This document shows positions 5,468-36,875 of a stretch of DNA of 64,000 bases, piece after piece. The stretch is from Mesocentrotus franciscanus (lineage: Eukaryota; Echinodermata; Echinoidea; Camarodonta; Strongylocentrotidae): NCBI GenBank assembly GCA_037976565.1, contig CP137679.1, forward strand, positions 7,299,973 through 7,363,972. The letters are read 5' to 3'. How positions within the stretch are numbered: position 1 is the stretch's first letter; each line of letters begins with the position of its first letter. The notes beneath the pieces are model-generated. The model saw only the letters and a list, made by a program, of their open reading frames with translations, did not search any database and was not told where the DNA came from. A program made the position numbers and the translations under genes.

Positions 5468-6104
5468 CCCAAACACGCTCAAATCTGTTTCGAAGACATC
5501 AATGAATCATTTCTATATTAAAAGAATAACTTTACTTAATCTGAGAGGTTTATTGTATATTTGCCAATTAATATACGACATTCCCCACCAAAATGTATGA
5601 GAGAGGTATAAAGCAAGAATAATGTACAGTTTCTCAGCACGACATAGGCATCACCATTTTCTTTATGCGTTAGGTTTCCTTTGATTGCATCACCCCCTGA
5701 TTACATAAGTCAATCTCTATAAGTGCTCGTTGTACACGAACCGTCATTTCAAATGCATTGTTACCGATACTTTACCAACCGGTGAAGGTAATAGAAGTTC
5801 AACCCACTGTTTGAAATGTTCATTTTGCAATGATATTGTGTACGAAGTGACCCTCATATTTTTTATTGAAGTTCACACCAGTTAATGACGTAGTCGTACG
5901 TCCTGAAAGGACGCCTTGTGTGCAACGGGTTTTAGTGCACTGATGTTTGATAACTCTGGACTTGATTCAGTTTCGACCTCATGATTGACTTAGAAGTTAG
6001 AAATACATTAGATTTTGATCAATCTATGGTAAACTCTTAAAAATATCTTTGCAAGAGTATTTGTTTGTAGTAGTATACGTGTATGTTATAACTGTGCCCC
6101 CAAT

Positions 6105-6110: not shown

Positions 6111-7381
6111 GTACGTAAAAAGTGATACTATAGAGAGATAGAGATTAAAAGAAAAAGGGAACGTGGATTGTTGGAAGATTACATCACTTAATTTGAAGAC
6201 TCTTGCGTTTCACCTATTTGAGCCACATAGCTACAGAACAATCCATATATAATTCGACTACGCACGCACACCAACGCACACGAATTTACGCACACACACG
6301 CAAACAAATGTTACAAGGAATGCACGTTGGGTAGTATCAGTGCACAATACGCGTATACGGGGCGCCTGACCATTTCTTATCAAGCTCTAAAAGTATTTGT
6401 ATTTTGTATCTATATTTGTATTTAATCGGACATTCAGTAAAAGCCAAACATTTCTGGAGATGCAGCAAAAGGTTTGAAAAACCCGTACAAGGCTGCATCC
6501 CCGATTAGAAATGATAACAGTTAACCCGTAATATAAAGCAAGATACATGATCAAAAAAGAGATTAGAAGCAAAGACATACATTCATTAAAATAGTTCACT
6601 TAGTAAAATATGAAATATGAATGAAAACACACAATACAATGTTATAGCATGTAAACGTTAAACTGGTGAGAACAACATTTTTTATAAATAATATTAATAT
6701 GCTTAGTATTAAATTGCACAAAGGTGCGATTATTACATAGTAATTTATTTTAGACAGATGATGAGTAGATGAATGGATAGCTGACTATATGAATACAATA
6801 TACGACAAAAAATAATAGTATTATTTAAACAAAAGGCATTATAAAATTACTTATTTCAATATATTATAATTCATGAAGAAGGATCTGTTTTGAGGTTTTG
6901 AAAGCTTAGATAGATTCAGTAACTTCAATTCTTGATAAAAACAAGGGGTTAAGAATAAAAATTAGTATCATTTGCATCTGTAATGTCTGTAGTACCTCTT
7001 TTATATAGAGACAATGTCACAGTAACAAAGACAATTTAAAAAATATGTGAACAAACCTAAAGGGCATGTTATGCAATGTTAATAGATCTTCTGAGAATGG
7101 ATATATCATAAATCAATCTTTAATATTTGTTGCATATCTTTTTCCTTCTTGTACTTCAAAAATGTTTTGACTACATGTTCAAGACATTTCACAAATGATT
7201 TATCAATCTAAAATGTATCAGTGGTGATTCTATCAAGAAATTATGAGTAAGAATGAGTTCAAAAGCACAATTTGTCAAGAAATATTTTACACTGATGCCA
7301 TTCCACACGCTTTCTTTGTAACATTTGAAGATGATACATTTTTACAAAAATAATAATAATTTGACATTTATTCAAATACAG

Positions 7382-7491
7382 GAATAAGTGGTCGCTGGAA
7401 AACCCACTTCACCGTGGCACAGAACGAAGCCTTCGATGAATGGTATAACAACAAGATGGCGGACACCGATCTCAAGTTTGCATTTGAGTAA
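7382..7491 (+). CDS. Duplicated terminal sulfotransferase exon
   Basis: This 110-bp exon is identical, base for base, to the sulfotransferase last exon at 5358-5467: same acceptor context (ATTCAAATACAG), same phase, same TAA stop at 7489-7491. No copies of the four upstream coding exons lie between the two, so alone it encodes only the C-terminal 36 residues. It could act as an alternative last exon giving the same protein with a different 3'UTR, or be a duplication relic. The coding identity stands out because the sequence on both sides has diverged by substitutions and indels. Confidence 0.75.
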
Positions 7492-8098
7492 CCGAAACAC
7501 GCTCAAATCTGTTTCGTAGATATCAATGAATCATTTTTATTTTAAAGAATAACTTTACTTAATCTGAGAGATTTATTGTATATTTGCCAATTAATATATG
7601 AGATTCCCCACCAAAATGTATGAGAGAGGTATAAAGCAAGAATAACGTACAGTTTCTCAGCACGACATAGGCATCACCATTTTCTTTATACGTGAGGTTT
7701 CCTTTGATTACATAATTCATTCTCTATTTAAAGTGCCCGTTGTAAACGAACCGTCATTTCGACTGCATTGTTACCGTTACTTTACCAATCAGTGAAGGCA
7801 ATACACTAGAAGTTCAACCCACTGTTTGAAAGGTTCATTTTGCAATGATATTGTGTACGAAGTCACCCGCATATTCTTCATTAAAGTTCACACCAGTTGA
7901 TGACGTAGTCGTACGTCAGGAAAGGACCCCCTGTGTGCAACGGGTTTTAGTGCACTGATGTTTGATAACTCTGGACTTGATTCAGTTTCGACTTTATGAT
8001 TGCCTTACAAGTTAGAAATACATTAGATTTTGTTCAATCTATGGTAAACTCTTTAAAATATCTTTGCAAGAGTATTTTTGTAGTAGTATAAGTGTATG

Positions 8099-8627
8099 TA
8101 ATTTTTTTTTTTACATTGCTTGACTAAACTGAATCAACTCAATTCTCGTTCATCATAAATTGAACTCTCTTTCCTTTTTTCTCTTTCTCTCGTCCCTCAA
8201 CTTTCTTTTGACTGTTGTTCCCCTTCGATCTCTCTCTCTTTCAAATTTTATCTCTCTTTATCCTTTCCTTCTCTCTTCCACTATTTCACTTTATATTTTT
8301 TTTTCTCTCAATTTACTGGCAAAGTGAAATTCACCATGGATTTCCTGAAATATTTAGTAAGCTTATCCTTCACATTGAATATATCAAGTATCAATTTTAA
8401 TCGATATCATTATAGTGTAGTATTTATATTAATATACCATTTTATAAATTACAATCGTTTTTTTTGTGTGTGATGTTTTTCCTACTGTAACTTATTACTG
8501 AATTTTAAATCCACTGTTTTTTAATACATTTTTATATGATACAATGTGAACCAGGTACTATTAGTCTTCGGAATTTTTATTTGGTATATTTTTAATAAAA
8601 CCGAAATTGAATTGAATTGAATTGAAT
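8099..8627 (+). mobile_element. LINE/SINE 3'-tail insertion in copy B
   Basis: Inserted relative to duplication copy A. It ends in AATAAAACCGAAATTG followed by a short GAATT-type tandem tail (about 8605-8627), the usual shape of a non-LTR retroelement 3' end. The interior (8160-8310) is pyrimidine-rich and has no credible coding frame. About 45 bases of the pre-insertion sequence are missing. Confidence 0.6.
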
Positions 8628-13651: not shown

Positions 13652-14103
13652 CACTAAAGTGTAACCTGCTGCTATAGAGTAACCTGCTGCTAAAGTGTAA
13701 CCTGCTGCTAAAGTGTAACCTGCTGCTAAAGTGTAACCTGCTGCTTTAGAGTAATCTGCTGCTAAAGTGTAACCTGCTGCTAAAGTGTAACCTGCTGCTA
13801 AAGTGTAATCTGCTGCTAAAGTGTAACCTGCTGCTAAAGTGTAATCTGCTGCTAAAGTGTAACCTGCTGCTATAGAGTAACCTGCTGCTAAAGTGTAATC
13901 TGCTGCTAAAGTGTAACCTGCTGCTATAGAGTAACCTGCTGCTAAAGTGTAACCTGCTGCTAAAGTGTAACCTGCTGCTAAAGTGTAACCTGCTGCTAAA
14001 GTCTAACCTGCTGCTAAAGTGTAATCTGCTGCTAAAGTGTAACCTGCTGCTAAAGTGTAACCTGCTGCTAAAGTGTAACCTGCTGCTATAGAGTAACCTG
14101 CTG
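13652..14103 (+). repeat. 18-bp minisatellite, about 25 units
   Basis: Consensus unit GCTGCTAAAGTGTAACCT. Variants carry TATAGAG in place of TAAAGTG, or AATCT in place of AACCT. The unit matches the inverted ends of the host element at 12597 and 16638, including a TATAGCG-like variant in the left end, so the array probably grew from a terminal motif. Confidence 0.95.
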
Positions 14104-17204: not shown

Positions 17205-17576
17205 ATTCACCTCAAGCTTCCCAGCCTAATGATTTGAGACCAATAGCCCTCACTTCATTGGTTATGAAATGTCCTGAAAGGGTTCTGCAATTCGTATTCC
17301 CTAGTGTGTTAAAGTATATTGATGTTATGCAATTTGCATACCAACCAAAGAAATGTGTAAACGATGCTATACTTGTACATTTTGTCTCACAACACACTGA
17401 TAAAGCTGGTTGCTATGTGCGGATTTCATTCATAGATTTTTCGTCCGCTTTTAACACGATTCAAAACCACATGTTGGCTCATATAAAGCTGAAACAAATG
17501 AACATTAGATCTTCAATAATTTTGTGGATACAGAATTTCTTGTCAAATCAATGATATCTCTTTGGTCAAATCGTAC
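17205..17576 (+). pseudogene. LINE reverse transcriptase, 5' half (interrupted)
   Basis: Frame reads NDLRPIALTSLVMKCPERVL, then MQFAYQPKK and ISFIDFSSAFNTI, the RT core of a CR1/Rex1-like LINE with the first catalytic Asp in FIDFSSAF. An in-frame TGA lies at 17552-17554. Downstream the frame runs into GTAC at 17573 and stops making sense in the TACC-word array. The missing continuation is found in the same frame at 36698. Confidence 0.85.
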
Positions 17577-17950
17577 AAAAAAATGAAGGGTAAATTGAAT
17601 GGTAAATGAAGGGTAAATTGAATGGTATACCATTGCCTTTACCCTTCAAAATTTACCACTCGGTGCATTAGAACACCATTCAATTACCCTTCAGAATTTA
17701 CCACTCAGTGTTGGAATATACCATTTAGAATTACCCTTCATTTACCCTTCATTTACCCTTCAATACTAATTTAAATAATTGGGACATTTAATTTGCATAT
17801 TGAATGGTAAAAATACCCTTCGAAGGGTATTTCAGTGGTAAAATACCCATTTAAATAATTGGGATATTTAATTTGCATATTGAATGGTAAAATACCCTTT
17901 GAAGGGTATTTCAGTGGTAAAATACCCTTTAATTTACCACTCGGCTCATC
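17577..17950. repeat. Left TACC-word array
   Basis: Diverged short units built on ACCCTTC, ACCATTC and ACCACTC in both orientations. It starts in the GAAGGGTAA sense, flips near 17625, and includes a local palindrome AATACCCTTCGAAGGGTATT that appears again in diverged form about 75 bases on. A LINE interrupts it at about 17950. Confidence 0.85.
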
Positions 17951-19058
17951 ATTGCAATAATTAATAATAATTAACAACATTTGTATAGCGCTTATCACAA
18001 AATATGTCTCTAAGCGCTTAAGAAAAATAGAAAGAGAAGGAATTACAGCCAAATATTAAGTTATACATAATAGATAGTGGACAATCGAGGGGGCTGCATA
18101 TGCAAATGAAAAAGGCTATTTAACAAAAAAGTAGGTTTTTAACATGGATTTGAATTTGTCTGTTGAATCTGCTTGTTTTATACATTGAGGTAAATTGTTC
18201 CAGAGTTGAGGGGATGCTGCATAAAAAGTTCGGGAACCATAAGACTGGGTATTGGTGGCAGGAACTATTAAGAGTGATTTCTTGTTTGAGCGCAGGTTGC
18301 GGGAGGGTAAGTATTCTGATATCAGCCTTTGAAGGTAGACTGGAGCTGTTTTTGTCAAACATTGGAAAGTCAGCAAGAGGATCTTAAAATCAATTCGTTC
18401 CCGGACTCTTAGCATGTGAAGCTCCTCAACAGTGGAGTGATGGACTCACGTGAACGACGCTTTGCAATAAGTCTAGCAGCTGAATTTTGTACTCTCTGCA
18501 ATTTGTTAATTTGTGCATCAGGAAGACCATACAGAAGACTGTTGCAAAAGTCAATACGAGACATGACCAGTGACTGAACAAGTCTCTGGGTGGTCTTTAG
18601 TAAGAAACTGACGGATGCTACCGATTTTATGCAACGCAAATGAGGCAGATCTGCATACATTGTTCACATGAGTCTTCAGAGATAGATTATTATCAAATGT
18701 GACCCCAAGGTTTCTAGCACCTGTAGAACATTCTATGTCAGTACCATCAATACATACATCATCAATCGGACTACAAGTCCTATGTCTGCTAACAAAGTGT
18801 ATACACTCCGTCTTATTTTCATTTAATTTCAATCCATTCTGTATGGACCAATTCTTAATGTCTGTAAAACATGCACTGAGTCTTTGTAGAGCAACAGCAT
18901 GGTTATCCTTCTTTAGCACGAGGTAAATTTGAGTGTCGTCTGCATAAGTCATACACGATATGCCATGGTGTTTAATGACATCCTCTAATGGAGATGAGAA
19001 AAGTGTAAATGCTAACGGACCGATAACAGATCCTTGGGGTACTCCGAAGTTCGAATAC
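17950..19058 (-). pseudogene. CR1/L2-like LINE, 5'-truncated and frameshifted
   Basis: Minus-strand reading begins in GVPQGSVIGPLAFTLF, followed by the catalytic box MTYADDTQIY and NGLKLNENKTECIHF (to about 18551). It continues after a shift in RLVQSLVMSRIDFCNSLLYG (18409-18660) and after another in VRERIDFKILLLTFQCL to a stop near 18116. The 3' end (about 17955-18020) has AAGCGCTTAGAGACA and GCGCTATACAAAT followed by an ATT-rich tail, typical of CR1/L2 elements. It sits inside the TACC-word array, so it inserted after that array formed. Confidence 0.88.
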
Positions 19059-20095
19059 CCTTCAACATATACCATTCAGCTCACCCTTCGTACCACTGGT
19101 TCACCCTTCAGTATACCACTCGTTCTCCACTGGTTTACCCTTCAGTATACCACTCAGTTTACCATTGGTCTACCCTTCAGTATACCACTCAGTTTACCAT
19201 CGGTCTACCCTTCAGCATACCACTCGGCTCACCATTGGTCTACCCTTCAGCATACCACTCGGCTCACCATTGGTCTACCCTTCAGTATACCACTCGTTCT
19301 CCACTGGTAATTACCCTTCAGTATACCACTCAGTTTACCATTGGTCTACCCTTCAGTATACCACTCAGTTTACCATTGGTCTACCCTTCAGCATACCACT
19401 CGGCTCACCATTGGTCTACCCTTCAGCATACCACTCGGCTCACCATTGGTCTACCCTTCAGTATACCACTCAGTTTACCACTGATCTACCCTTCGTTGTA
19501 CCATTCAGTTCAGCATTGGTCTACCCTTCAGCATACCACTCGGCTCACCATTGGTCTACCCTTCAGTATACCACTCGGCTCACCATTGGTCTACCCTTCA
19601 GTATACCACTCGGCTCACCATTGGTCTACCCTTCAGTATACCACTCGGCTCACCATTGGTCTACCCTTCAGCATACCACTCGGCTCACCATTGGTCTACC
19701 CTTCAGCATACCACTCGGCTCACCATTGGTCTACCCTTCAGTATACCACTCGGCTCACCATTGGTCTACCCTTCAGTATACCACTCAGCTCACCATTGGT
19801 CTACCCTTCAGCATACCACTCGGCTCACCATTGGTCTACCCTTCAGCATACCACTTGGCTCACCATTGGTCTACCCTTCAGCATACCACTCGGCTCACCA
19901 TTGGTCTACCCTTCAGCATACCACTCGGCTCACCATTGGTCTACCCTTCAGCATACCACTCGGCTCACCATTGGTCTAGCTACCCTTCAGTATACCATTC
20001 AGCTCACCATTGGTCTAGCTACCCTTCAGTATACCACCCAGTTCACCATTGGTTTACCCTTCAGCATACCACGTGGTTCACCACCAGTCTATAAC
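19059..20095 (+). repeat. 35-bp satellite, about 29 units
   Basis: Each unit is three related words: TACCCTTCAGTA (or AGCA), TACCACTCGGCT, CACCATTGGTC (12+12+11). Because 35 is not a multiple of three, all plus frames stay open for long stretches and give a repeating YPSVYHSAHHWS-type peptide. That is arithmetic, not coding. Units near both edges are more diverged; the centre is highly homogeneous. Confidence 0.95.
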
Positions 20096-20795
20096 AAAGT
20101 CCTTTGGATTGGTAAAACTAACGTTATATCAGTATTTCGTTTCATTTCATGGAACCACAAAAATGATTTATAAAATCCATTATTTTGTTATCTCAGACTT
20201 CTTTTTAAAGTGGGATTATATACTGTATTATATATGGACATAATACATAAGTTCATACATGGTATACTGAATGGTAGGTGGACGAGTAATGAACTGAATA
20301 AAAACCACAAAGTTTGAAAACAATGTCTGCAATGAAGTACATATTATCCCATTCAATACATGAATTATACTATAGACTTGTATGTACTAGACTAATAGTA
20401 TTTTATTATGAAAAGAAACAAAAAAAAATAATTGGACATAATATGGTAGGATAAAAATAATTGACAGCATTGCAACAGAATGGCAGAATCTGGCAATAAA
20501 AATGTAACACATGCAGTCATTTCATAAATGGAATACAATTTTCCTTACAGAATTGGTACATCATGGAGAAAACTAACTACTCCCATTTTCAAGAAATACC
20601 CAAATATATTGTTGGGGCGTGGCAGTAAGCCACATGTAATTTCAAACAATTTTAGATTAGCTTTGACATTCTGCGACAAACCTAAGTGACAATAGGGCCA
20701 TTCACACATAGAGCAAAAAAAGTGAGCTTCAAAAATCGGTGCATGTGAACGGTGCGAACATGAGTGATTTTTCTTAATTTAATCAAAATTGAAAT
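20096..20795. other. No gene seen
   Basis: AT-rich sequence between two arrays, with no repeat structure or coding signal that I can support. Confidence 0.6.
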
Positions 20796-20799
20796 CGAA

Positions 20800-23700
20800 T
20801 CAAATACAAATAAAGAAATACATAATACATGTTAGAAAAGAAGAAAGGTGAAAAGGAAAGATAGAGATGATGATGGAAGGATAAAAATAAAGAAATGCAT
20901 AAGGAATGATAGAAAAGAAGAAAGAGGCAGAAAAGGGAAGATAGCGAAGATGATAGATAAAAATAGAGAAATACATATGGAATGATAGGAAAGATGGAGA
21001 AAAGGATAGAAGGATAACAATAAAGAAATACATAAGGAATGATAAAAAAGAAGAGAGAGAGAGGCAGAAAAGGGAAGATAGAGAAGATGATAGGATAAAA
21101 ATAAAGAAATACATATGGAATGATAAACAAGAAGAAAGGAAAGATAGAAAATGATAGAAGGATAAAAATAAAGAAATATATAATGATAGAAAAGAAGGAG
21201 AAAAGGAAAGATAGAGAAGATGATAAGATAAAATAAAAGAAATACATATGGAATGGTAGAAAAGAAGAAAGGCAGAAAAGGGAAGATAGAGAAGGTGATA
21301 GGATAAAATAAAAGAAATACATATGGAATGAAAGAAAAGGAAGAGAAAAGTAAAGATAGAGAAGATGCTAGGATAAAATAAAAGAAGAAAAAGAAGAGAA
21401 AAGGAGAATGAAGATAGAGAAGATGATAGGATAAAATAAAAGAAATACATATGGAATGAGAGAAAAGAAGAAAAGAAAAGAGGAGAATGAAGATAGAGAA
21501 GATGATAGGATAAAATAAAAGAAATACATATGGAATGATAGAAAAGGAGAAAAGGAAAGAGAAAATGATAGACGGATACAAATAAAGAAATACATTAGGA
21601 ATGATAGAAAAGAAGAGGCAAAAAGGGAAGATAGAGAAGATGATAGGATAAAATAAAAGAAATACATATGGAATGAAAGAAAAGGAGGAGAAAAGTATAG
21701 AGAAGATGCTAGGATAAAATAAAAGAAGAAAAAGAAGAGAAAAGGAGAATGAAGATAGAGAAGATGATAGGATAAAATAAAAGAAATACATATGGAATGA
21801 GAGAAAAGAAGAAAAGAAAAGAGGTGAATGAAGATAGAGAAGATGATAGGATAAAATAAAAGAAATACATATGGAATGATAGAAAGAAGGAGAAAAGGAA
21901 AGAGAAAATGATAGACGGATACAAATAAAGAAATACATTAGGAATGATAGAAAAGAAGAGGCAAAAAAGGGAAGATAGAGAAGATAGGATACAAATAACG
22001 AAATACATATGGAATGATACAAAAGAAGAAAGGAAAGATAGAGAAGATGATAGAAGGATAAAGAAGAAAGGAAAGATAGAGAAGATGATAGAAGGATAAA
22101 AAGAAGAAAGGAAAGATAGAGAAGATGATAGAAGGATAAAAAAGAAGGAAAGATAGAGAAGATGATAGAAGGAAATAAAAAGGAAGAAAGAAGCAGAAGG
22201 AAGATAGAGAAGATAGAGAAGATGAAAAGATAAAATAAAAGCAATACATATGGAATGAAAGAAAAGGAGAGATAGAGAAGATGATAGGATAAAATAAAAG
22301 AAATACATATGGAATGAATGAAAAGGAGAAAAGGAAAGATAGAGAAGATGATAGGATAAAATAAAAGAAATACATATGGAATGATAGGAAAGATGGAGAA
22401 AAGGATAGAAGGATAACAATAAAGAAATACATAAGGAATGATAAAAAGAAGAGAGAGAGGCAGAAAAGGGAAGATAGAGAAGATGATAGGATAAAAATAA
22501 AGAAATACATATGGAATGATAAACAAGAAGAAAGGAAAGATAGAGAAAATGATAGAAGGATAAAAATAAAGAAATATATAATGATAGAAAAGAAGGAGAA
22601 AAGGAAAGATAGAGAAGATGATAAGATAAAATAAAAGAAATACATATGGAATGGTAGAAAAGAAGAAAGGCAGAAAAGGGAAAATAGAGAAGGTGATAGG
22701 ATAAAATAAAAGAAATACATATGGAATGAAAGAAAAGGAAGAGAAAAGTAAAGATAGAGAAGATGCTAGGATAAAATAAAAGAAGAAAAAGAAGAGAAAA
22801 GGAGAATGAAGATAGAGAAGATGATAGGATAAAATAAAAGAAATAGATATGGAATGAGAGAAAAGAAGAAAAGAAAAGAGGAGAATGAAGATAGAGATGA
22901 TAGGATAAAATAAAAGAAATACATATGGAATGATAGAAAAGGAGAAAAGGAAAGAGAAAATGATCGACGGATACAAATAAAGAAATACATTAGGAATGAT
23001 AGAAAAGAAGAGGCAAAAAAGGGAAGATAGAGAAGATGATAGGATAAAATAAAAGAAGAAAAAAGAAGAGAAAAGGAGAATGAAGATAGAGAAGATGATA
23101 GGATAAAATAAAAGAAATACATTTGGAATGATAGAACAGAAGAAAGAAGCAGAAAAAAAGAAAAGATAGAGAAAATGATAGGAGGGTAAAAAATAAAGAA
23201 ATACATAAGGAATGGTAGAAAAGTAGAGGCAGAAAAGGGAAGATAGGATAAAATAAAAGAAATACATATGGGATGATAGAAAAGAAAAAGGAGAAAAGGA
23301 AAGATAGAGAAGATGATAGGATAAAATAAAAGAAATACATATGGAATGATAGAAAAAAAGAAAGGAAAGATGATAGAAGGATAAATATAAAGAAATATAT
23401 GATAGAAAAGAAGAAAGAAGCAGAAGAATGATAGAAAAGAGGATAGGATAAAATAAAAGAAATACATATGGAATGAAAGAAAAGAAGGAGAAAAGGAAAG
23501 ATAGAGAAAAGGAAAGATAGAGAAGATGATAGGATGAAATAAAAGAAATACATATGGAATGATAGAAAAGAAGGAGAAAAGGAAAGAGAAAATGATAGAC
23601 GGTTACAAATAAAGAAATACATTAGGAATGATAGAAAAGAAGAGGCAAAAAAGGGAAGATAGAGAAGATGATAGGATAAAATAAAAGAAATACATATGGA

Positions 23701-26700
23701 ATGAAAGAAAAGGAGGAGAAAAGTAAAGATAGAGAAGATGCTAGGATAAAATAAAAGAAGAAAAAAGAAGAGAAAAGGAGAATGAAGATAGAGAAGATGA
23801 TAGGATAAAATAAAAGAAATACATATGGAATGAGAGAAAAGAAGAAAAGAAAAGAGGTGAATGAAGATAGAGAAGATGATAGGATAAAATAAAAGAAATA
23901 CATATGGAATGATAGAAAAGAAGGAGAAAAGGAAAGAGAAAATGATAGACGGATACAAATAAAGAAATACATTAGGAATGATAGAAAAGAAGAGGCAAAA
24001 AAGGGAAGATAGAGAAGATAGGATACAAATAACGAAATACATATGGAATGATACAAAAGGAGAAAGGAAAGATAGAGAAGATGATAGAAGGATAAAGAAG
24101 AAAGGAAAGATAGAGAAGATGATAGAAGGATAAAAAGAAGAAAGGAAAGATAGAGAAGATGATAGAAGGATAAAAAAGAAGGAAAGATAGAGAAGATGAT
24201 AGAAGGAAATAAAAAGAAGAAAGAAGCAGAAGGAAGATAGAGAAGATAGAGAAGATGAAAAGATAAAATAAAAGAAATACATATGGAATGAAAGAAAAGG
24301 AGAGATAGAGAAGATGATAGGATAAAATAAAAGAAATACATATGGAATGAATGAAAAGGAGAAAAGGAAAGATAGAGAAGATGATAGGATAAAATAAAAG
24401 AAATACATATGGAATGATAGGAAAGAAGGAGAAAAGGAAAGAGAAAATGATAGACGGATACAAATAAAGAAATACATTAGGAATGATAGAAAAGAAGAGG
24501 CAAAAAAGGGAAGATAGAGAAGATAGGATACAAATAAAGAAATACATATGGAATGATACAAAAGAAGAAAGGAAAGATAGAGAAGATGATAGAAGGATAA
24601 AGAAGAAAGGAAAGATAGAGAAGATGATAGAAGGATAAAAAGAAGAAAGGAAAGATAGAGAAGATGATAGAAGGATAAAAAGAAGGAAAGATAGAGAAGA
24701 TGATCAAGGAAATAAAAAGGAAGAAAGAAGCAGAAGGAAGATAGAGAAGATAGAGAAGATGAAAAGATAAAATAAAAGCAATACATATGGAATGAAAGAA
24801 AAGGAGAGATAGAGAAGATGATAGGATAAAATAAAAGAAATACATATGGAATGAATGAAAAGGAGAAAAGGAAAGATAGAGAAGATGATAGGATAAAATA
24901 AAAGAAATACATATGGAATGATAGGAAAGATGGAGAAAAGGATAGAAGGATAACAATAAAGAAATACATAAGGAATGATAAAAAGAAGAGAGAGAGGCAG
25001 AAAAGGGAAGATAGAGAAGATGATAGGATAAAATAAAGAAATACATATGGAATGATAAAAAGAAGAAAGGAAAGATAGAGAAATGATAGAAGGATAAAAA
25101 TAAAGAAATATATAATGATAGAAAAGAAGGAGAAAAGGAAAGATAGAGAAGATGATAAGATAAAATAAAAGAAATACATATGGAATGGTAGAAAAGAAGA
25201 AAGGCAGAAAAGGGAAAAGAGAAGATGATAGGATAAAATAAAAGAAATACATATGGAATGAAAGAAAAGGAAGAGAAAAGTAAAGATAGAGAAGATGCTA
25301 GGATAAAATAAAAGAAGAAAAAAGAAGAGAAAAGGAGAATGAAGATAGAGAAGATGATAGGATAAAATAAAAGAAATAGATATGGAATGAGAGAAAAGAA
25401 GAAAAGAAAAGAGGAGAATGAAGATAGAGATGATAGGATAAAATAAAAGAAATACATATGGAATGATAGAAAAGGAGAAAAGGAAAGAGAAAATGATAGA
25501 CGGATACAAATAAAGAAATACATTAGGAATGATAGAAAAGAAGAGGCAAAAAGGAAGATAGAGAAGATGATAGGATAAAATAAAAGAAGAAAAAGAAGAG
25601 AAAAAAGGAGAATGAAGATAGAGAAGATGATAGGATAAAATAAAAGAAATACATTTGGAATGATAGAACAGAAGAAAGAAGCAGAAAAAAAGAAAAGATA
25701 GAGAAAATGATAGGAGGGTAAAAAATAAAGAAATACATAAGGAATGGTAGAAAAGTAGAGGCAGAAAAGGGAAGATAGGATAAAATAAAAGAAATACATA
25801 TGGGATGATAGAAAAGAAAAAAGGAGAAAAGGAAAGATAGAGAAGATGATAGGATAAAATAAAAGAAATACATATGGAATGATAGAAAAAAAGAAAGGAA
25901 AGATGATAGAAGGATAAATATAAAGAAATATATGATAGAAAAGAAGAAAGAAGCAGAAGAATGATAGAAAAGAGGATAGGATAAAATAAAAGAAATACAT
26001 ATGGAATGAAAGAAAAGAAGGAGAAAAGGAAAGATAGAGAAGATGATAGGATGAAATAAAAGAAATACATATGGAATGATAGAAAAGAAGGAGAAAAGGA
26101 AAGAGAAAATAATAGACGGTTACAAATAAAGAAATACATATGGAATGATAGAAAAGAAGAGGCAAAAAAGGGAAGATAGAGAAGCTAGGATACAAATAAT
26201 GAAATACATATGGAATGATATAAAAGAAAGGAAAGATAGAGAAGATAATAGAAGGATAAAAAAGAAGAAAGCAGAAGATAGAGAAGATAAGATAAAATAA
26301 AAGAAATACATATGGAATGAAAGAAAAGAAGAAGGAGAAAAGGAAAGATAGAGAAGATGATAGGATGAAATAAAAGAAATACATATGGAATGATAGAAAA
26401 GAAGAAAGAAGCAGAAGGAAAATAGAGAAGATGATAGGATAAAATAAAAGAAATGCATAATATACATGATAGAAAAGAAGAAAGGAGAAAAGGAAAGATA
26501 GAGAAGATGAAAGGTTGAAAATAAAGAAATACATGACAGAAAAGAAATAGGAGATAAGGAAAGATAGAGAATATCATATGAGAAAATAAAGAAATACATG
26601 AGGAATAATAGAAAAGAAGAAAGAAGGAGAAAAGAAGGAGAAAAGAAAGAAGGAGAAAAGGAAAGATAGAGAAGATGATGGAAGAATAACAAAGAAATAT

Positions 26701-26850
26701 ATAAGGAATAATAGAAAAGAAGAAAGGAGAAAAGGAAAGATACAGGAGATGATAGAAGAATAACAACAAAGAAATACATAGTAAAGAATAGAAAAGAAAT
26801 AATAAAAAAGTAAAGAATTATAAGGAAAGATAGAGAAGAATCGAGTCAGG
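20800..26850. repeat. Purine-rich satellite, about 6 kb
   Basis: About 90 diverged units of roughly 60-70 bases. Each carries AAAGAAATACATATGGAATG, then an A/G tract, then AGATAGAGAAGATGATAGGA. A higher-order pattern is present: the rare phrase GGAAAGATGGAGAAAAGGAT recurs at about 20988, 22387 and 24923 with similar neighbours. One strand is nearly all A/G with T, so the minus strand shows open frames up to 1049 codons made only of Phe, Ser, Leu, Ile and Tyr. Those frames are compositional. Confidence 0.95.
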
Positions 26851-27493
26851 TCACTGCTTGGACATGCGCAATGCATACCTTCAAACCCATCTCTTGTTCG
26901 CTCACCCTAGCCAAAGTGGAAGTAAAATGGCCATTTTACAAAGCTTCCTTGCTGAAAATTTGTGTATGGGGAACTTATTTTATTGTTGTGTTTAGTGGCA
27001 AATTCTAGTTCCACTTTGCTCATACCCTAGTTGGAAATAACAATTCTTAAATGTAGTTGAAAAAAAGTTTAGCTAAAGTGCTTAACCAATGTAAGTCTTA
27101 AACTTAGCTATTTAAAGGATTGGGAAACTTTGTCTCAGATTCTGAAACAAAATCCTGGATTTAGCTCATGCTGCAATGATAATTATAAACCTTTAGGTCA
27201 GTCAGGAACCCCATGACTTTTACAAGCCGATCGCCTGTCTGATTATCAAGATATTTATGATTGCAAATCGAAATTTAAAAATTCGTTTTCCTAACTGTTT
27301 TGATAACACTGCAGTCTATTGGGAAAAGTGAGTATGGTCAAACTGGTCACTCCAAAAGATTTTTACTTTTTTGAGGCACTTCATGATAATTTTGAAGTGC
27401 AATTTTTTTAGGGCTGCAATATTACACCATATCACAGACACTGATAACACGTAGGGCCATGCATCTCAGATTTAACATTGTTAAACGATGCCT
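26851..27493. other. Non-coding; carries one arm of a distant inverted pair
   Basis: About 26998-27098 is an inverted, diverged copy of 30291-30391 (shared ATAACAATTCTTAAATGTA). No gene seen. Confidence 0.6.
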
Positions 27494-27688
27494 TTAAAGC
27501 CCCACTGATCTTCTTGTAGCTACTTGCTCCCTATATATAGAAAACAATGACTAAGCGGTGCCCGTTGGTCCCCCATGATCCTCTTTTACTTATGTTAATT
27601 GAGAGCTGAGTTGATGAGATAACCACCTGTCAGTGACCAGCAGGGTGGTCTAATCCCTCCTGGCCAAACAAGTGCAGACGGGCTTTAA
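27494..27688. mobile_element. 195-bp TTAA-flanked element, copy 2
   Basis: Same element and same length as 13374-13568. Left end TTTAAAGCCCCACTG, right end GACGGGCTTTAA. Its right TTAA (27685-27688) is also the left TTAA of the next element. Confidence 0.8.
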
Positions 27689-28216
27689 AGGTACCATTTG
27701 CAGGCCAAAAAAATGAAAAGGTTAAAATCCAACGGCATTTGAAAGATAATACTAATTTAGAACTTCCCTCAGAAACAAAAGGGCTTGAAAATGTCTTTTT
27801 GTGGGAATATAACGACCGTTAGTTGTCGAATTGAATTTAGCAATCGCTGTCGTTTAATTAAATAGTCTGATTTTCAGACCCTTGTACCGAATGGTCGTAC
27901 GTTTTGTGCTGCGCAAAGATTCAATCAGTTTAATTTTGGCCATTACAAGAAGTGGGTTATTGATGTAGACAAATGCTAATGTACCCTTTACAGCTCATTT
28001 TATGTATGTTATTACCAAAGAAAAAAGTCAGTCAGTCACTCAATAGTGTCTGACAATGAAGTCTAGAAAGTAAACAGGTTTTGTGCATAATTTGAATACT
28101 AGGACACTGCTAAAGTTTAAATTTCACAGATACATGTAGGAAATACGTAACATTCATAATTCCTGCAAAGTTCTACAGAATTTGATGTTGGCTGAAAAAG
28201 GATAAACTACCTTTAA
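27685..28216. mobile_element. TTAA-flanked element, 532 bp, copy 1
   Basis: Bounded by TTAA 27685-27688 and 28213-28216. Ends AGGTACCATTTGC and AAACTACCT. Closely similar along its length to 60436-60950 (shared GTGGGTTATTGATGTAGACA). It has lost part of the terminal inverted repeat that the other copy keeps. Confidence 0.8.
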
Positions 28217-28486
28217 AGTAATCATGTAAGGTTTATCTTACATGTTTCAGGGCAAACATAACCCTATATTTTTGAGAGGGACACTTTCTCTGTGGGGGGG
28301 GAGCATATCCCCATAGCCCTGAAAGATACAATTTACCCAAGAAGGGCACATGCATATCCTCATGTACCCCAGAAGGGGGATTTTTTTCTCTCTTTATCCC
28401 TGATGAGGATGAGGGACACTTATCACAATGCACAAAGCTCACTTGAGCCTTTGGCTCAGCCTGTCAGGTGAGCTAATTATTTATAT

Positions 28487-28898
28487 TTTCCCCCCTTCCC
28501 TAGTTAGCTAGGGCTTCCATTAGGTCACTAGCATGCACCCTCAAAACATGACTGAAACAAAGACATACGAGCTGCTGCTAGTGTAAATGCATGATTACAA
28601 TCAAACTTCCAACCAAAGTTGGTCAAAGTGATCTTTTGTTTAGGGTTTGTGTTCTTATTTCATTAATTTTTTCAATATCTTTGTTTAGAATACAATAAAA
28701 TGATTTACCAAAGTATCTAGGGTTGGACTACTCAGGACTACCCAGGTTTATTTGGAAAGTTTTGATATGCACTGTAAAGCAATCTTCATCTACTGTACAC
28801 TACACTAGCAGCAGCTCTTATGTCTTTGTTTCAGTCATGTTTTTGAGGGTGCATGCTAGTGACCTAACGGAAGCCCTAACTTGGGAAGAGGGGAAATA
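28487..28898. mobile_element. Foldback element
   Basis: Inverted arms of about 98 bases (28487-28585 and 28801-28898) around a 215-base centre, sharing CACTAGCATGCACCCTCAAA and GACTGAAACAAAGACAT. No coding capacity. Confidence 0.8.
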
Positions 28899-29573
28899 TC
28901 ATAGAGGCATGTACGCAGCTACAAAGTGATAGAATGGTTCAAGCACCAAGGCATATTCAATGTTGAACATGTAGTGGGCCTTGAATAGGTGGTCAAACCC
29001 AGCTGCTACCACCGACACGTCTTATCCAGCACCAGGAAATACTGAGAGGGCTACTTCTCCACTTCGACCGATACTAGGTATGGCTGGCTGAAGGTGGTAT
29101 CTGAAGGTGGTATCTTTCCGGTCGGCGACACCTTGCCCATTGGTTCCTTCCTGAAAAAGGAGGCATAAAAATTGTTGTAATATTTGACATTTTAAAGAGA
29201 ATCTCACTGGAAACAAGTGAGCTGATGATTTCTGATAAACAATGGCATAGCAGGGGAAGAGTAAATGTAGCCCTTGCATCAAGTCTAACCATCTTCATAA
29301 ACATAAGACCGACAGTCTGTGAGACCAAAACTGCAAAAATGTATATAAGAACGAAATGCTATATGACATGAAGGTCTATGAATGCATAATTATGCCAAAT
29401 GACAACCGACACTCGAGACTCTTGGTAACAAATTCAAATTAATTTCAGTCCAACAACCAAAACCTGCCAAGGTTCCTTCTTTGGTCTTACATAGACAGGC
29501 TATGACTGGCTGAAGTTGTTCTAATTGTAATTATTTCAATTTGTATATTTTGTTTCATCATGAAAAAAAAAGG

Positions 29574-29683
29574 ATGGACACAATCAACACCAATTTTATC
29601 CCTGAAAATGAACTATAATTAAAAACAGACTGCCCTCTGGACACAATCAACACCAATTTTATCTCTGAAAATGAATTATAATT
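29574..29683. repeat. Short direct duplication
   Basis: A 46-base phrase beginning GGACACAATCAACACCAATT occurs at about 29574-29620 and again at about 29637-29683 with few changes. Confidence 0.85.
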
Positions 29684-32224
29684 ATTTATTAAATATCCCT
29701 TCGAATAGTCATGCAATTGCTGGGGACTTTTTCTAGGGAGAATATGTGATACTTGGTTCAAACTAGAAAAAAAAAACTTACAGGCACATTCTGTACAAAG
29801 TACTTGAGCACTTCCAATCTTGAGCATCTGTGGTCCTCCCCCTTAAAAATATTAAACATGGAACCATAATGAATGAATAGCACCTATTCTATTACATAAA
29901 AGAAAGATATTAGGCTCATTTCAATCATGTTGGAACAAGGGGGGTATAGAAATTTGATACTGTTTTGTTTTGTTTATATATTTGAAGGGCTGAATCAAAT
30001 CAAGTAAGTTAATTAAAACCACATTTAATTCATATCCCCAGCCCTAAGAGAAATGTAGTTGTGTTCATTAAGACTTTACATAAGACAAAAATAAATTCCA
30101 TTTTCTTTCCGTATATTCCACCAAGTGCTCACAAAGAAATTAAATACTAAAATAAATGTTCTTTAAAAATATTTGCATGTTCACCCTGATCTTCCATACC
30201 TTTGACGAATATCCGTTTTCAACTGGGGGCAAGCTGAGACATGTAACATAAACTTTGCATGATTTACACAAATAGTTAAGTTAGTAATACTAGCTTACAT
30301 TCGTTCAGTTTACTTTAGCTGAACTATTTTTCAATTACATTTAAGAATTGTTATTTCTAACTAAGAGCAATGTGGAAATAGAATTTGCCACTAGATCTAC
30401 GCATAATGTGAAAAATTAGCTTACTGTCGCCATCAGCATCTTCAAAGACAGATACTTTCTCCAGCAGCACTGGGTAGAGTGGGTTGTCCTTCCTGGCCAG
30501 ATTGATAATCTGGTCCAAAAGAATGGACCCCATTTCCTGATAAAGTTGTCACATTTCTCAGGGTATAACTTTGCCAAGTCGATGTTGATCTAGAAATTAA
30601 GCAGCGAAAATTATGTGTATTCAAAACTAGAATTAGAAAGAACTAGAAAGTTGATCAATACCCCTGCAATACCGCTTTGTGGGCTGCCGTGGAAATGATC
30701 TATTTATCATGCAACATCAATGTAAGTGCTATTATGAAAGACTGCATTGTGTTGTTTTTTTTTAATCCTTTTGTAAAGCTGGTCCCTTAATTCCATGCTC
30801 ATGGAATTACAAAAGTACAAGAAATAGTGAAATATGTCTTATACTTTCAGGAACTCTGAGCGCTTCTTACAGCAATTTGCTCCTGTCTATTTTTGAGGAA
30901 TATAGTTAGGCAGTGGGAACATTCAGGGTCTGAGGAAGTTCAGGAGGAGGGACTTAATGTATTACTGTATTTAAAGAAATTTATTAAGAAACAGTAAAAT
31001 AACCTAGCTTCAAAAGGGGTGAGAGCGACAAAGAGAAAGTAAAAGGACCAGGCTTTAATGAGGGTGAACTGGGGTGAACTGGGGTTACTGCAAGTATTTC
31101 AGTTGCAGCAGTAAGAATAGATAAGCTAAATTAATAATGGGTACCAGAAGTATTTTTGCAAGGAAAAAGGAGTACAATGTATCTGTGTATATATCCTCAA
31201 CTTGTTATAAATGATATGGGCTTACCCACGAGAAATAAAAATAATAGAAGTATTAACTGTAAACTGTTGTCTCTGGTAATTTGTCAGAGTGTAATGTTTT
31301 TCCTTTTTCTTTTAATAAAATTGGTGGTCTATATTTCCATTACAGCATCTAGCAGGGTTAGAGGGGGTTGATTACAGACCCATCCCCACTATCCCAACCT
31401 GCCCCTGGTTCCTTCCTTTAAGGAGAATTAGGAATGGGGCCGTAGAACCCCCAATTGCTAGACGAACAAAAACAAAATTAAAATGTTGACATGCATACTT
31501 CATGCAGCCACTCAACCTTTAAAAAAATCAATACAAAGGGAGATTTCAAAAGGGGGGAAAATGGAAAGTGCAACTGCATTGTTCAACCTCTCAACAGAAT
31601 TGAGAAATGCGGTGTGTGGCCCGCACATCTTGTGTTGAACCAATATAGAACTTAACTAATAGGAGATTTTATATTTATATATATATTTGTTTACCTTTTT
31701 GATTTTATACTCTCCTAATACTGAGAATACTCAAGATAATTTCTTCTCTATTAATTGTTTTATATGGCTAATGTAGAAAATGTAAAGACAGGTAAGTAAG
31801 AAAAAAAATGTGGTTACAATTGAGAGACTAGGTAAATTTAAATCACAAACATTGTCTCACTTTGTAGCATTCATCATAATTTTTCCATCCCATTTGCGTA
31901 CTTTTAATTATTATGAGGTACCGGTAGGCTACTGGTGACCAGACCCTGGTAGGTCCAATCACTTGCCCTCTAGGGTAAAATTGTGTGTTAAGAAAATAAA
32001 TACTGGAGTCAGCACATCCAACATGCCTCTGATCAGTATCCAAAGGGTGCATGTGAACAGTTAAATCAAGCTCCAGGTATAGTTGCTAGCTTACATTTGT
32101 GCAAGGAGGTGGTTGGTGTTGATTTTGAGAACAAACAAACCAATAACAAATAAATTAAATTAAAAAAATGAACAAATAAAACAATTGATAAATAAAGCAA
32201 TGAATAGTTAAACAAATAAATAAA

Positions 32225-32540
32225 TTCGATCAGAAAAGGTTGATCATCTAGCATATAATTATTGGTGTGTACTGCAAGGTTCTGGAATCATCAAAATGAT
32301 AAGAAATTTGGCCCAGTCTTGGTAAAGTTACAAGCACTGTACACAGAAAGATGTATATGGGACTACGCGACACGTGCGCAATATCTATCTGGTCCAAATA
32401 GATATAATAATTTACCAAATATATCAATTAGTAGGCGGTTTCCCGGCAGTCAAAACATATTCTTTCACATGATTGGTAATGAGAGCTTCCATTTCATTTT
32501 TTGAGAGGGGGGCATTTCCAAAACTGGTCTATACCTTTAA
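32225..32540. mobile_element. TTAA element fragment, inverted relative to 46067-46458
   Basis: The right end CTGGTCTATACCT plus TTAA (32537-32540) is intact. The left end is cut at about 32225, where similarity to the complete copy stops and A/T-rich sequence begins. Shared interior includes GGCCCAGTCTTGGTAAAGTT. Confidence 0.75.
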
Positions 32541-33043
32541 AGGCAAATAGGACTAGGAGTGTAAGTCCTCATTAAAAAAAGTTTCAATATGCCACTTCTA
32601 TATCAAAATTTGCCAAGAAAATGTTCAATTTTGAGTCAATATCTACTAAAGAAACCTTCAAAGTAAGAATTTTTGACAATCATTACATATTTTGACCACT
32701 GTAGACTTGTAGTGATAATTCATCATTTCAGTGACTCTAGAATTAAAAAATGGTTACATCAGAACATACATGTATACACTATAGTCTACATGTACACCTA
32801 CATTTATTTATAATTAGAGTTTAAATGGTTTAACTTGAAACTTTAAAAGTCCTAAAAATGGCTTGCATCTGATGAAAAAATATTTGATTCTTGACGTGGT
32901 TTTATAATTAACTAAGTTTTAACTTTTAGTATCACAGCATCAACTAAAAATACAAATGTTGTCAGGCATGTAGGGGTGGTAGTGAGCACGCAAAGCGACC
33001 GAGCGCATTCCCTAGGGGGGAGGGTGCAAGGAGGGGAAGCCTC

Positions 33044-33300
33044 GACATTTCATTAAATTATTAGAGAAATCTTAATCCGTAATCCGTGTCTGAATTCAGT
33101 TTCCTCCAGAGCGAAGCTTTGACGTTTCATTAAATTATTAGAGAAAGAAGACGATTTGTTGTAGACTATATTATACGCTCGACTCTTAATCCATATCTGC
33201 ATTCAGCTTTGACGTTTCATTAAATTATTAGTTTAGAGAAAGAAGACGTTTCGTTGTACCGTTCTCGACTCTTATCTTAATGATAATCCTTGTCTGAATC
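33044..33300. repeat. Three diverged tandem units, about 80-90 bp
   Basis: Units start at about 33044, 33121 and 33210 with GAC[A/G]TTTCATTAAATTATT followed by an AGAGAAAGAAGACG block. Confidence 0.75.
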
Positions 33301-35380
33301 TTCAAAAATGTTTCTTTGTCTGCTCCTTTTTCTTCCTACGTCCTCTTTACTTTTTTTTCTTCTCTCTCTTTATTTGGTTTTGCAGGCGTTTTTTTGGAGG
33401 CGACCGCCCTACACCCCTGGCTACGCGCCTGAATTTTCTCTGGATTGAATGACCCTAGACCTAGTAGTAGTACATGTAGATCTAGATCTAGATCTAGTTA
33501 GTTTAGTACAGCACAGTTCGATTTGCAACGAGCAATTCAACGCATCTCTTGCAAATGCAGTGGGGTAGTAGGCTAGACCTAGACTAGATCTAGGCCTATT
33601 TCCTAATTCATTTAGATCTAGGCCTATGTGTGACTTTTCCAATTGACATTACACCGTACGGTACATGTATATGGTCACAGTACAGATTTGATAACGAAAT
33701 TGCAAGGGTTTATTTTCAATTTCCCAAATATTTCATTTCAGACTCGCATGTAAATTATTAATTAGATCTCTAGACCTTACTTTTTTAGGCTTAGATCTAG
33801 TAGTAGAAGTAGTAGTAGGCGGCGGCGTAGTAGGCCTACTTTAGTACTTAGTCTTACTCTTAGGCCTGTTAGGGTATTGACTTGTACTTGTATGACAAAT
33901 TCATCAAGTTTTTATGTTACACTACAGCATAGATTACTGATTAGACTAGGCCTAGGGCCTACTGCAGTTTCTACAGGAATAGGCTACAGCCTAGACCGAA
34001 AGCTTCAGTCTCTGATATCGACGGTTGTTCCGCTGAGATTGCATCTGGCTCCTCTGACCGCCTCTATACATAGACTGAAGTACGGCGTATGCAGTAGTGT
34101 GCGGAACGAATGGTTCGGTTCGGCCGGACCGCGATGAATGAGATATGCATCGAGATTTTTCACTCTTTACGTCTTCATATATCCACTTTGGCTGCAATAT
34201 TACACTGAATATTAATTAAGATGAAAATAACACAGAAATATCTACTTTGACTTACGATAGCTTGCTCATTTAGATCCTATATTAATGATTAATCCGAGAA
34301 AGTCTTGTAGTCAACAAGATTTGTTGTCAGCCATCTTGGTTAAGTTGATGAATATTCATTTTTCTTTTCGAACGTCCAATAGCTACGTATGAGTCAGCCC
34401 GGCTTGAGCCGGTGATGTTTGAATATTCATAAGCCCAATATCAAACACGTGCTCTGATTGGCCATTGGGCTTGTTTTGGTCGGTTGACCCGAAATATATC
34501 GGGCGGGTCATGTCATAGATTACCAGTTCGAATGCATGAACGTACCGTTTCCTTGGTTCTGAGATAAAAATTGGATAATTCATATACGTAAGTCCGTAAA
34601 TTTTGCATTTAGAAATAATTCATTAAAAATTGATAACTGTACATAGGAGAAAAATAGACATAGTATTTTTGTATCTGATTTATAAATCAGAAAATTAGAT
34701 CTAAATAAGGAAAATCGTGGGAGAAAGTTTCGGGTAACAAGTGCTGCACAATCGGCTCAATCTCTCCCCCCGTTGCGAGCCGTATTGGTTACCGTCTGTG
34801 TATGGGGAATGTCAACAAATGTCAGTTTTATTAAAGAATGACCCATACCAGACGGTTATTTCTGTCTAGCTACAGCCCAGCCCCAGCCCCAGCCCCAGGC
34901 CCAGCCCCAGTGTTGATCTGACTGAGGCATGGACCTTCTTACAGTAGGTCCATCATGGTTGAGGTCTTGCGCTGCTTTTGAGCTTTCATATTTAGGAAGT
35001 ATTAACTAAAGGTAAGTGTTTGGAAATACAAATTACAACCCCGTCCTAGAAATCTATGTACATTATACATACTACATAGTCTACATACATGTAGGCCTAC
35101 ACTGTAGACTATACAGACTACAGTTAATGGTTATATACGCGCTATGCTGGGCGGCCGGCTGGCCGGCTGGGCTACGGCGTGCCCTATGCCATTCGCAAGA
35201 CCTCGAACGGCCAACTTCAAATTCGACAAGTTCTCCAGCTAATTTTGTTATCATCGGCAATAAACTTTCAAACAAAAATTTACCAGAAATCTTTTTCAGT
35301 ATTCATACGTCATGATGCTTACCTTTTAGGAGCTCGATGACTTTCCCATCCAGATCTATTTCTCGAAGAAAATCGTCCAT

Positions 35381-35525
35381 TACTTGATTCTTTCAAGACA
35401 CTCGCAATGCACGTTCGAAGATGGCGCGACCAGTATCAACGGTACGCGCGCTCGATTGTGAGATCTGATTCGTTGAAATTTTATATTGCGTGACGTTATC
35501 TACGGTACGGGCCATCTTGATTGGC
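35381..35525 (-). promoter_or_regulatory. Likely promoter / 5'UTR of the 29051-35380 gene
   Basis: Upstream of the minus-strand ATG the sequence turns CpG-richer. It carries AAGATGGCG (35418-35426, plus sense) and its reverse form GCCATCTTG (35511-35519), a pattern common as YY1-type sites at metazoan starts, plus TGACGTTA (35491-35498, CRE-like) and an inverted CCAAT (ATTGG). No TATA box is evident. Assignment rests on these words and position only. Confidence 0.4.
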
Positions 35526-35689
35526 GAGAAGTTTACCGTATAAAGTCTCTCAAGGATTTATATAAATTAATTAAGTCGAACTGTTTTAAGTCTCAAAATG
35601 GATTTAAAGTTTAAGTCCTAGAATGATTTAGAGAGTTTATAAGGTTTGTCTATAATTCTCCTTTGTGAATTCGGACCATTAAGTTTATA

Positions 35690-36697
35690 ATCTACCACTG
35701 AAATACACTTCAAATACCATTCACCATTCAGATTACCCTTCAGTTACCCTTCATTTTTTGGTAGGCCTACCCTTCACCACTCAAATGTTATAATTCAAAT
35801 ACCATTCACCATTCAGATTACCCTTCATTCACCCTTCATTTTGTTTACCCTTCACCACTCAAATGGTATCATTCAAATACCATTAAGATACCCTTTGTAT
35901 CAAACTCTACCACTGAAATACACTTCAAATACCATTCACCATTCAGATTACCCTTCATTTGTTTGTACCCTTCCCCACTCAAATGGTATAATTCATATAC
36001 CATTAATTAGGCATTCTGATAGTTTGAGTTAGCCTATATACTGTCTACCACTTAAATACCCTTCAAATACCCAGTCACCATTCAGATTACCTTTCATTTA
36101 CCCTTCATTCTTTTTAACCCTTCACCACTCAAATGGTATAATTCAAATACCATTAAGATACCCTTTGAGTTATATACTCTACCACTGAAATACCCTTCAA
36201 ATATATACCATTCACCATTCAGAGTACCTTTCATTTACCCTTCATCTTTTGTTTACCCTTCACCACTCAAATTAGTCAAATGGTATCCGATTCAAATACC
36301 ATTGAGATACCCTTTGAATTACACTCTACCACTGAAATACCCTTCAATTTACCCTTCTTTTTTTTTTACCCTTCACCACTCAAATGGTATCATTCAAATA
36401 CCATTAAGATACCCTTTGAATTATACTCTACCACTGAAATACCCTTCAATTTACCCTTCATTTTTTTACCCTTCACCACTCAAATGGTATCATTCAAATA
36501 CCATTAAGATACCCTTTGAATTATACTCTACCACTGAAATACCCTTCAATTTACCCTTCATTTTTTTACCCTTCACCACTCAAATGGTATCATTCAAATA
36601 CCATTAAGATACCCTTTGTATTAAACTCTACCACTGAAATACCCTTCAATTACCATTCACCATTCAGATTACCCTTCATTTACCCTTCACTTTTTTT
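35690..36697 (+). repeat. Right TACC-word array
   Basis: Diverged ACCCTTC, ACCATTC and ACCACTC words mixed with AATGGTATCATTCAAATACC. Part of it is a homogeneous 100-bp period: TACCCTTCACCACTC starts at 36367, 36467 and 36567. Same vocabulary and sense as the left array. It ends in CTTTTTTTGTAC against the resumed LINE frame. Confidence 0.9.
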
Positions 36698-36875
36698 GTA
36701 CAAAGGGTAAAAGTACGAAAGGAGTTGTCGGATCTGATCACAGTAAATACCGGGTCGCCCCAGGGATGTGTGCTATCAGCACCTTTGTTTATCTATATGT
36801 GACTGCTTAGCTACAAAAGACGGCGTTAAGCTTCTGAAATATGCCAAGATACGGCTCGGGGGTCAACCTAGCTGG
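36698..36875 (+). pseudogene. LINE reverse transcriptase, 3' half (interrupted)
   Basis: From GTA at 36698 the frame reads VQRVKVRKELSDLITVN, then TGSPQGCVLSAPLFIYM and a TGA. After a shift it reads DCLATKDGVKLLKYA, where the catalytic YADD is damaged (YAKI). PQGCVLS and KYAxD are RT core motifs in the order expected after the block ending at 17576. Decayed and inactive. Confidence 0.82.

Follow-up and report, generated by a model that had tools for sequence, protein, structure and literature searches.

Why is a reverse transcriptase (RT) frame of the sea urchin Mesocentrotus franciscanus interrupted by some 19 kb of other sequence? The locus lies within a 64,000-nucleotide stretch of contig CP137679.1 (C14:7299973-7363972 of assembly GCA_037976565.1), hereafter the window, which we compared with the rest of the 773-Mb genome (21 contigs). 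We propose, with a probability of about 0.85, that the 19-kb segment belongs to a family of giant (about 15-25 kb) DNA transposons that are non-autonomous, move by cut-and-paste and carry a captured gene.

A reverse transcriptase frame split by one segment

Both halves of the frame were aligned to five copies of a long interspersed nuclear element (LINE) fetched from elsewhere in the genome, and all five match the two halves uninterrupted across the join, at 91.7-92.7% identity over the left piece (17440-17549) and 96-97% over the right (36700-36798). The first-pass annotation, which had proposed one RT split by one segment, is correct on this point because these copies of the same LINE read straight through. 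The right piece alone (44 amino acids) has no Pfam match.

17225-17549, plus strand: 5' part of the LINE reverse transcriptase that received the insertion (RVT_1, E 2.9e-9; five LINE copies)
17550-17572, no strand: 23-nt filler at the left junction, ending in a repeat of TCAAATC (absent from LINE copies L050-L054)
36700-36798, plus strand: 3' part of the interrupted LINE reverse transcriptase (matches those five LINE copies at 96-97%)

Strand and block order are as first described, and codon phase is kept once the segment and one GTAC are removed, but the 23-nt filler holds an in-frame stop. The native LINE reads TCAAATC-GTAC-ACAAAGGG, its site being TCAAATCGTACACAAAGGG in four of the five fetched copies and TCAAACCGTAC in L051. 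At the left junction of the window, TCAAATC is followed by the 23 nt that again end in TCAAATC, then by GTAC and A7; at the right junction, T7 is followed by GTACAAAGGG. Up to 2 nt of native sequence are lost at the join, depending on the assignment of GTAC, and the filler is added at the left. Between these junctions, the inverted ends were found as reported: the segment starts at 17577 with A7-TGAAGGGTAAAT (A7-TGAAGGGTAAATTGAATGG) and ends at 36697 in a near reverse complement, giving a window copy of 19,121 bp between its shortened ends.

Fixed ends and a 2-bp target-site duplication

The recurring end of the family is a short inverted repeat, CCCTTAC followed by an A-run and (G)TGAAGGGTAA, so that canonical copies read CCCTTAC...GTAAGGG. 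CCCTTAC opens the A-run in every fetched left end, with a C within the run in L027, and GTAAGGG is present in 17 of 19 fetched right ends, the window's excluded.

17577-17640, plus strand: left terminal inverted repeat (TIR), without the outer CCCTT (common boundary in other copies; CCCTTAC in 20/20 fetched left ends)
36628-36697, minus strand: right TIR, without the outer AAGGG (in the C9 copy, about 70 bp per end are inverted, with an 83% match to the left end)

The GTAC that flanks both ends of the window copy had been read as a target-site duplication (TSD). It is literally present on both sides, but this interpretation is ruled out by the CCCTTAC/GTAAGGG ends of other copies, which are 5 bp longer at each end, by the 2-bp duplication that those copies carry, and by the native GTAC of the LINE. 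The tetranucleotide is partly native LINE and partly the element's own TAC and GTA, without any target duplication, and the outer CCCTT (left) and AAGGG (right) are absent from the window copy. Its junctions reflect either insertion of trimmed ends with error-prone repair, or a normal insertion that later lost a few bases per side.

The terminal pattern CCCTTACAAAAN{0,6}TGAAGGGTAA occurs 39 times in the genome, against 0 and 0 for the reversed control. Apart from the window, 11 facing pairs of ends lie 14,777 to 24,625 bp apart, ten of them pattern pairs and the eleventh a pair on C1 whose left end differs from the pattern by one base. Other loci with these ends about 15-25 kb apart, as the first-pass annotation had anticipated, therefore exist, and the single giant insertion that it offered as one of two readings is borne out as one split LINE holding a copy of a dispersed family. 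A left-junction search found at least 23 other places at 92-100% identity, the best 40 of 47 candidates having been scored; the right-junction list is likewise a lower bound. Eight of these 23 places match the left end from 17577 onwards, three from 17574, nine from 17581 (seven of which have an additional piece starting at 17577) and three from 17604. On the right, the best matches run as far as 36700, since GTA also belongs to the family's GTAAGGG.

The two bases preceding CCCTTAC recur after GTAAGGG in 10 of the 11 complete pairs (TA, AG, AG, AT, AG, AA, AA, TT, AG and AG), and the duplication extends to 3 bp in 0/11. Random re-pairing of the flanks gave ten or more matches in 13 of 200,000 trials, a statistic weaker than it looks because AG is in excess. 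Fixed ends are common to many copies with unrelated flanks, the exceptions being three left flanks, two right ends on C8 and two on C16.

Recent amplification, with some plain duplication

Over 2.6 kb of core, 13 copies including the window's diverge by 0.12-1.63% (mean 0.69%), and divergence this low points to recent amplification of the family. Could the block instead have spread without a transposase, by dispersed segmental duplication or satellite-mediated recombination? Such a history would account for the three left flanks that are alike (two C3 copies at 99.75% and C6b at 92.6%, the C6b flanks being unmatched), for two right ends on C8 (L043/L044; C8:28113850 and 27992442), 121 kb apart, that are 99.5% alike over 2.9 kb including flank, and for two C16 right ends that share flank. 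We nevertheless consider it quite unlikely, as the switch to flank falls on the same base at each end in ten pairs, which also have 2 bp in common, and the left unique part is found on 12 contigs. Transposition remains our preferred reading of the dispersal, with the likeness of the C8 right ends, flank included, indicating that part of the copy number is plain duplication.

Several copies have an unusual structure. The alike left flanks (C3:44397933, C3:44416205 and C6:26927463) suggest that flank and element were duplicated together, or reflect an effect of assembly, and the two C16 right ends share about the first 60 bp of flank. The left end at C16:18436025 (L007/L014) is only about 160 bp long, and its left flank appears again after it (193 bp, 98%); this end is a remnant with a flank duplication. 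At C5:14618892-14673177, two ends of the left type are oriented towards each other across 54.3 kb and enclose two inverted copies of the gene exons described below, perhaps as a giant palindromic composite. Between one pair of ends at C1:20601409-20626033, and again at C18:5372308-5394990, the gene exons occur twice, and in both copies the core seems to have been duplicated inside the element.

Subterminal arrays and a shared internal layout

17641-17959, plus strand: left subterminal part, with the motif in both orientations and an 80-bp duplication (17577-17959 aligns at 82-100% in copies reaching 17959)
17960-19053, minus strand: window-specific LINE fragment (RT 3' part) inserted in the left array (RVT_1, E 4.6e-14)
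19054-20091, plus strand: 35-bp tandem array, ACC(CTT/ATT/ACT) at 78 per kb (common to other copies)
20100-20780, plus strand: left unique 681 bp (21 places genome-wide)
20804-26840, plus strand: purine-rich satellite of about 70-bp period and copy-dependent length (self-comparison, other copies)
26841-28791, no strand: rest of the core (comparison with fetched copies)
35685-36640, plus strand: right subterminal array of about 100-bp units, motif at 63 per kb (oriented like the left array)

The left arm, purine satellite and core are common to 15 of 20 fetched copies, in the order of the window. The C9 copy, the only one read from end to end, comprises the inverted repeat, 80-bp duplication, 35-bp array, about 700 bp of unique sequence, purine satellite, core, 100-bp array and inverted repeat, its core having no equivalent of window 33986-34922. 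The left unique 681 bp were matched at 93-100% in 21 places including the window, 3 of them partial (21/21 candidates scored). The earlier alternative of a smaller transposon swollen by nested insertions holds for one LINE fragment of about 1.1 kb (17960-19053), without which at least 14 of 20 fetched copies run directly from 17959 to 19054/19055, but fails for the satellites and gene, which are common to those 15 copies; purely local swelling was accordingly rejected for all but that fragment. Conversely, the window has lost 269-443 bp at 26910 that are present in 15/15 copies reaching this point, and a further window-specific loss of about 110 bp lies at 29844/29845.

Outside the element, the ACC(CTT/ATT/ACT) motif occurs at 0.6-0.9 per kb per strand. 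By analogy with the subterminal repeats of CACTA elements (PMC8978399), the dense arrays are probably transposase-binding sites. Their orientation bears on the parallel drawn in the first-pass annotation, with TU- or foldback-type elements whose long inverted ends are built of tandem units. Satellite-like arrays do adjoin both ends, and the core has no long coding frame of its own. The arrays nevertheless run in the same orientation at both ends (in the C9 copy, 93 motifs versus 0 on the left and 156 versus 20 on the right), with only about 70 bp inverted, which led us to reject long inverted arms; as the TSD is moreover 2 bp here against the 8-10 bp described for Tetris in PMC4079207, we hold a TU or foldback identity to be highly improbable. 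The short-TIR transposon that we favour also contains, in several of its copies, a dispersed repeat of about 530 bp that is found at other loci and twice in the window (27691-28218 and 60448-60952, 83%).

An apparent host gene captured as genomic DNA

The cargo looks like one of the animal's own genes, lying on the minus strand of the core.

28792-35640, minus strand: captured gene region, from the upstream side to the last exon, with introns (matches to C17)
35324-35380, minus strand: exon 1 (MDDFLREIDLDGKVIELLK, then a splice donor; sequence and C17 comparison)
30426-30589, minus strand: exon A, lacking 1 nt here and in most copies (C17 and copy comparison)
29779-29844, minus strand: exon B remnant, its first half deleted in the window copy (copy comparison)
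28869-29150, minus strand: last exon (C), interrupted by stops (C17 and copy comparison)

We compared two parts of this region, 28792-30678 and 35331-35636, which lie on either side of a long intron, with a relative on C17. The first, introns included, matches C17:21530975-21532906 at 81-85% identity, and the second, with exon 1 and upstream sequence, matches C17:21503763-21504169 in three ordered pieces at 78-91%; weaker upstream matches occur at C2:43.32 and C1:61.68 Mb. In the C17 relative, exon A is at 21531062 with B and C downstream, and all three are open; we infer that these and exon 1, 27 kb apart on C17, belong to one gene. As exons and introns are both matched, the gene was taken up as DNA and not as a spliced copy. 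The host-type gene with introns that had been suspected as cargo is supported by its C17 relative and by its recurrence in other copies. A host gene that merely crosses the segment boundary was disfavoured, the same exons lying inside other element copies and the C17 relative elsewhere.

Most of the core is a gene taken up from genomic DNA; it includes upstream region, introns and four or more exons, and is now broken. A stop interrupts exon C in 14/14 element copies where it was matched; exon A has lost 1 nt in 8 of 10 copies, being open in L015 (partial) and L023; and exon B has an open frame throughout in 8 of 11 copies, the window copy having lost half. No frame of 150 amino acids or more is present in the window core, and the cargo protein gave no Pfam family above cut-off, no match to a PDB sequence and none in the protein collection at E <= 1. 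Relatives of the element at 12-25% divergence (identities of 88% on C13, 82% on C21 and 75% on C1) retain exon 1 together with upstream DNA, indicating that capture is much older than the amplification burst.

A paralogue of the cargo gene at nine other loci

The last exon also matches nine dispersed loci with equal scores, at 53% amino acid identity over a 139-amino-acid open frame, ahead of weaker relatives at 31-42%. These lie at C2:45824555, C6:38328791, C7:31322556, C7:33769610, C8:8361966, C11:18093734, C14:3883859, C19:10433378 and C21:27641694 (L059). The 2.3 kb around one locus recur with 99-100% identity at each of the other eight, in one case only in part, and match no copy of the present element; the genome-wide pattern search did not place the present family's terminal pattern near any of the nine. 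At C21, the only locus read, an intron separates the sampled paralogue exons B and C, both of which are open. The nine-locus unit is probably a second mobile or duplicated unit bearing a paralogue of the cargo gene. A long-carried broken copy in one unit and open sampled exons in another raise the speculative idea, to which we give rather low credence, that giant DNA transposons of this genome have repeatedly carried members of this gene family, and that the gene may serve them, for example in an accessory or host-control function, instead of being random cargo.

How the element may move, and what weighs against it

In the mechanism we envisage, a transposase encoded elsewhere would recognise the ends of the element and its dense subterminal ACC(CTT/ATT/ACT) motifs, excise the whole unit and reinsert it with a 2-bp stagger. 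The gene would have been captured long ago and would since have hitch-hiked with the element, and entry of the window copy into the LINE RT gene would represent an atypical insertion, or one trimmed later. The cut-and-paste class of the segment is one that we infer, because no transposase was found in the window core and no partner was identified.

That negative result, obtained from six-frame Pfam scans of both strands of the core, is one of several observations that weigh against this account. Domain scans of L017:2150-9951 also found no transposase domain; matches in the core to DUF5617 (E 0.13) and DUF4083 (E 0.028), far under the curated cut-offs, were set aside as chance. The C6b pair is the one of 11 that has no TSD (AG/AT), and five of the ten matching duplications are AG, with 28 of 110 cross pairs also matching. 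Two further copies, at C14:7.24-7.26 Mb (about 17.7 kb) and on C13 (about 32.6 kb), have right ends cut within the T-run. Five of the 20 fetched copies (L010, L011, L014, L017 and L027) no longer follow the shared order beyond the left arm or its array, and the C8 right ends have been duplicated together with their flank. Finally, several ends have no partner: left ends at C10:26.79, C6:38.13, C6:26.94, C3:44.40, C16:18.44, C15:15.31, C16:13.90 and C8:17.70 Mb, and right ends on C16 (two), C8 (three), C21 (two) and at C1:28.2 Mb, all of which were excluded from the pair counts. Runs of N fall within the fetched stretches L010, L021 and L025.

Here a gene region with introns travels as DNA, together with its upstream sequence, inside a young multi-copy family of 15-25 kb elements, which is a clear case of gene capture by a transposon in an animal. 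Its many young copies offer a test bed for capture, the growth of subterminal satellites and long-range cut-and-paste, and its end pattern (39 sites, controls 0) is specific enough to be used in hunting the missing transposase.

Other repeats in the window

The window contains further tandem arrays at 13654-14103 (18-bp units), 52826-53916 (142-324), 56143-56535 (140), 56688-57309 (144-285) and 57810-58574 (157), none of which matches the element among the 200 of 217 self-comparison matches listed. The same 200 matches include local duplications in blocks of 0.5-0.8 kb at 88-91% identity, pairing 2689-3882 with 6235-7341 and 5333-6089 with 7356-8102.

Comparison with known systems

The element was not described in the literature searched, which is no proof of absence. 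Its kind is already known, from gene-carrying CACTA and MULE elements and from foldback elements, while its CCCTTAC termini, 2-bp duplication and layout match none of the families tested. CACTA elements begin with CACTA or CACTG; the TSD is 8 bp in TU elements, 9-11 bp in MULEs and TA in Tc1/mariner elements, and Helitrons insert without one. The present element resembles Pack-MULEs and gene-carrying Helitrons in carrying host gene DNA, and is unlike MULEs and Helitrons in combining a 2-bp TSD with a TIR; unlike Tc1/mariner elements, it has TA in only one of ten duplications. With foldback elements (Drosophila FB, Tetris and sea urchin TU) it shares satellite-like tandem units near both ends and a non-autonomous nature. 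Its inverted repeat is short, its arrays have the same orientation and its TSD is 2 bp, in contrast to the longer TSD given for Tetris in PMC4079207. ISL2EU elements of the PHIS superfamily are similar in duplicating 2 bp, which PMC4482050 places at the AT within A-AT-T; here the duplications are TA, AG, AT, AA and TT, with AT in only one of ten.

The closest likeness in layout is to CACTA, and a CMC/CACTA-type element, defined by a short TIR, a 2-3 bp TSD, dense subterminal repeats and captured gene pieces, is a possibility that we entertain tentatively, as the less probable assignment. Its main difficulties are the ends, which read CCCTTAC in 20/20 fetched left ends and not CACTA/CACTG, and the lack of a CMC transposase in the stretches scanned (window core and L017:2150-9951). 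What it explains is the architecture: for CACTA elements, PMC8978399 describes TIRs with subterminal repeats whose direct and inverted units are closely spaced, and elements, for example in Chenopodium, that can contain captured gene fragments and satellite arrays, and for CMC elements PMC4482050 gives TSDs of 2-4 bp, a range that includes the 2 bp found here. Set beside the CACTA elements of these accounts, the present one differs in a cargo extending from the gene's upstream region to its last exon, in its animal host and in having no transposase identified, and it shares with those of Chenopodium, and with soybean Tgm-Express, the combination of a short TIR, dense subterminal repeats, captured gene pieces and internal satellite arrays.

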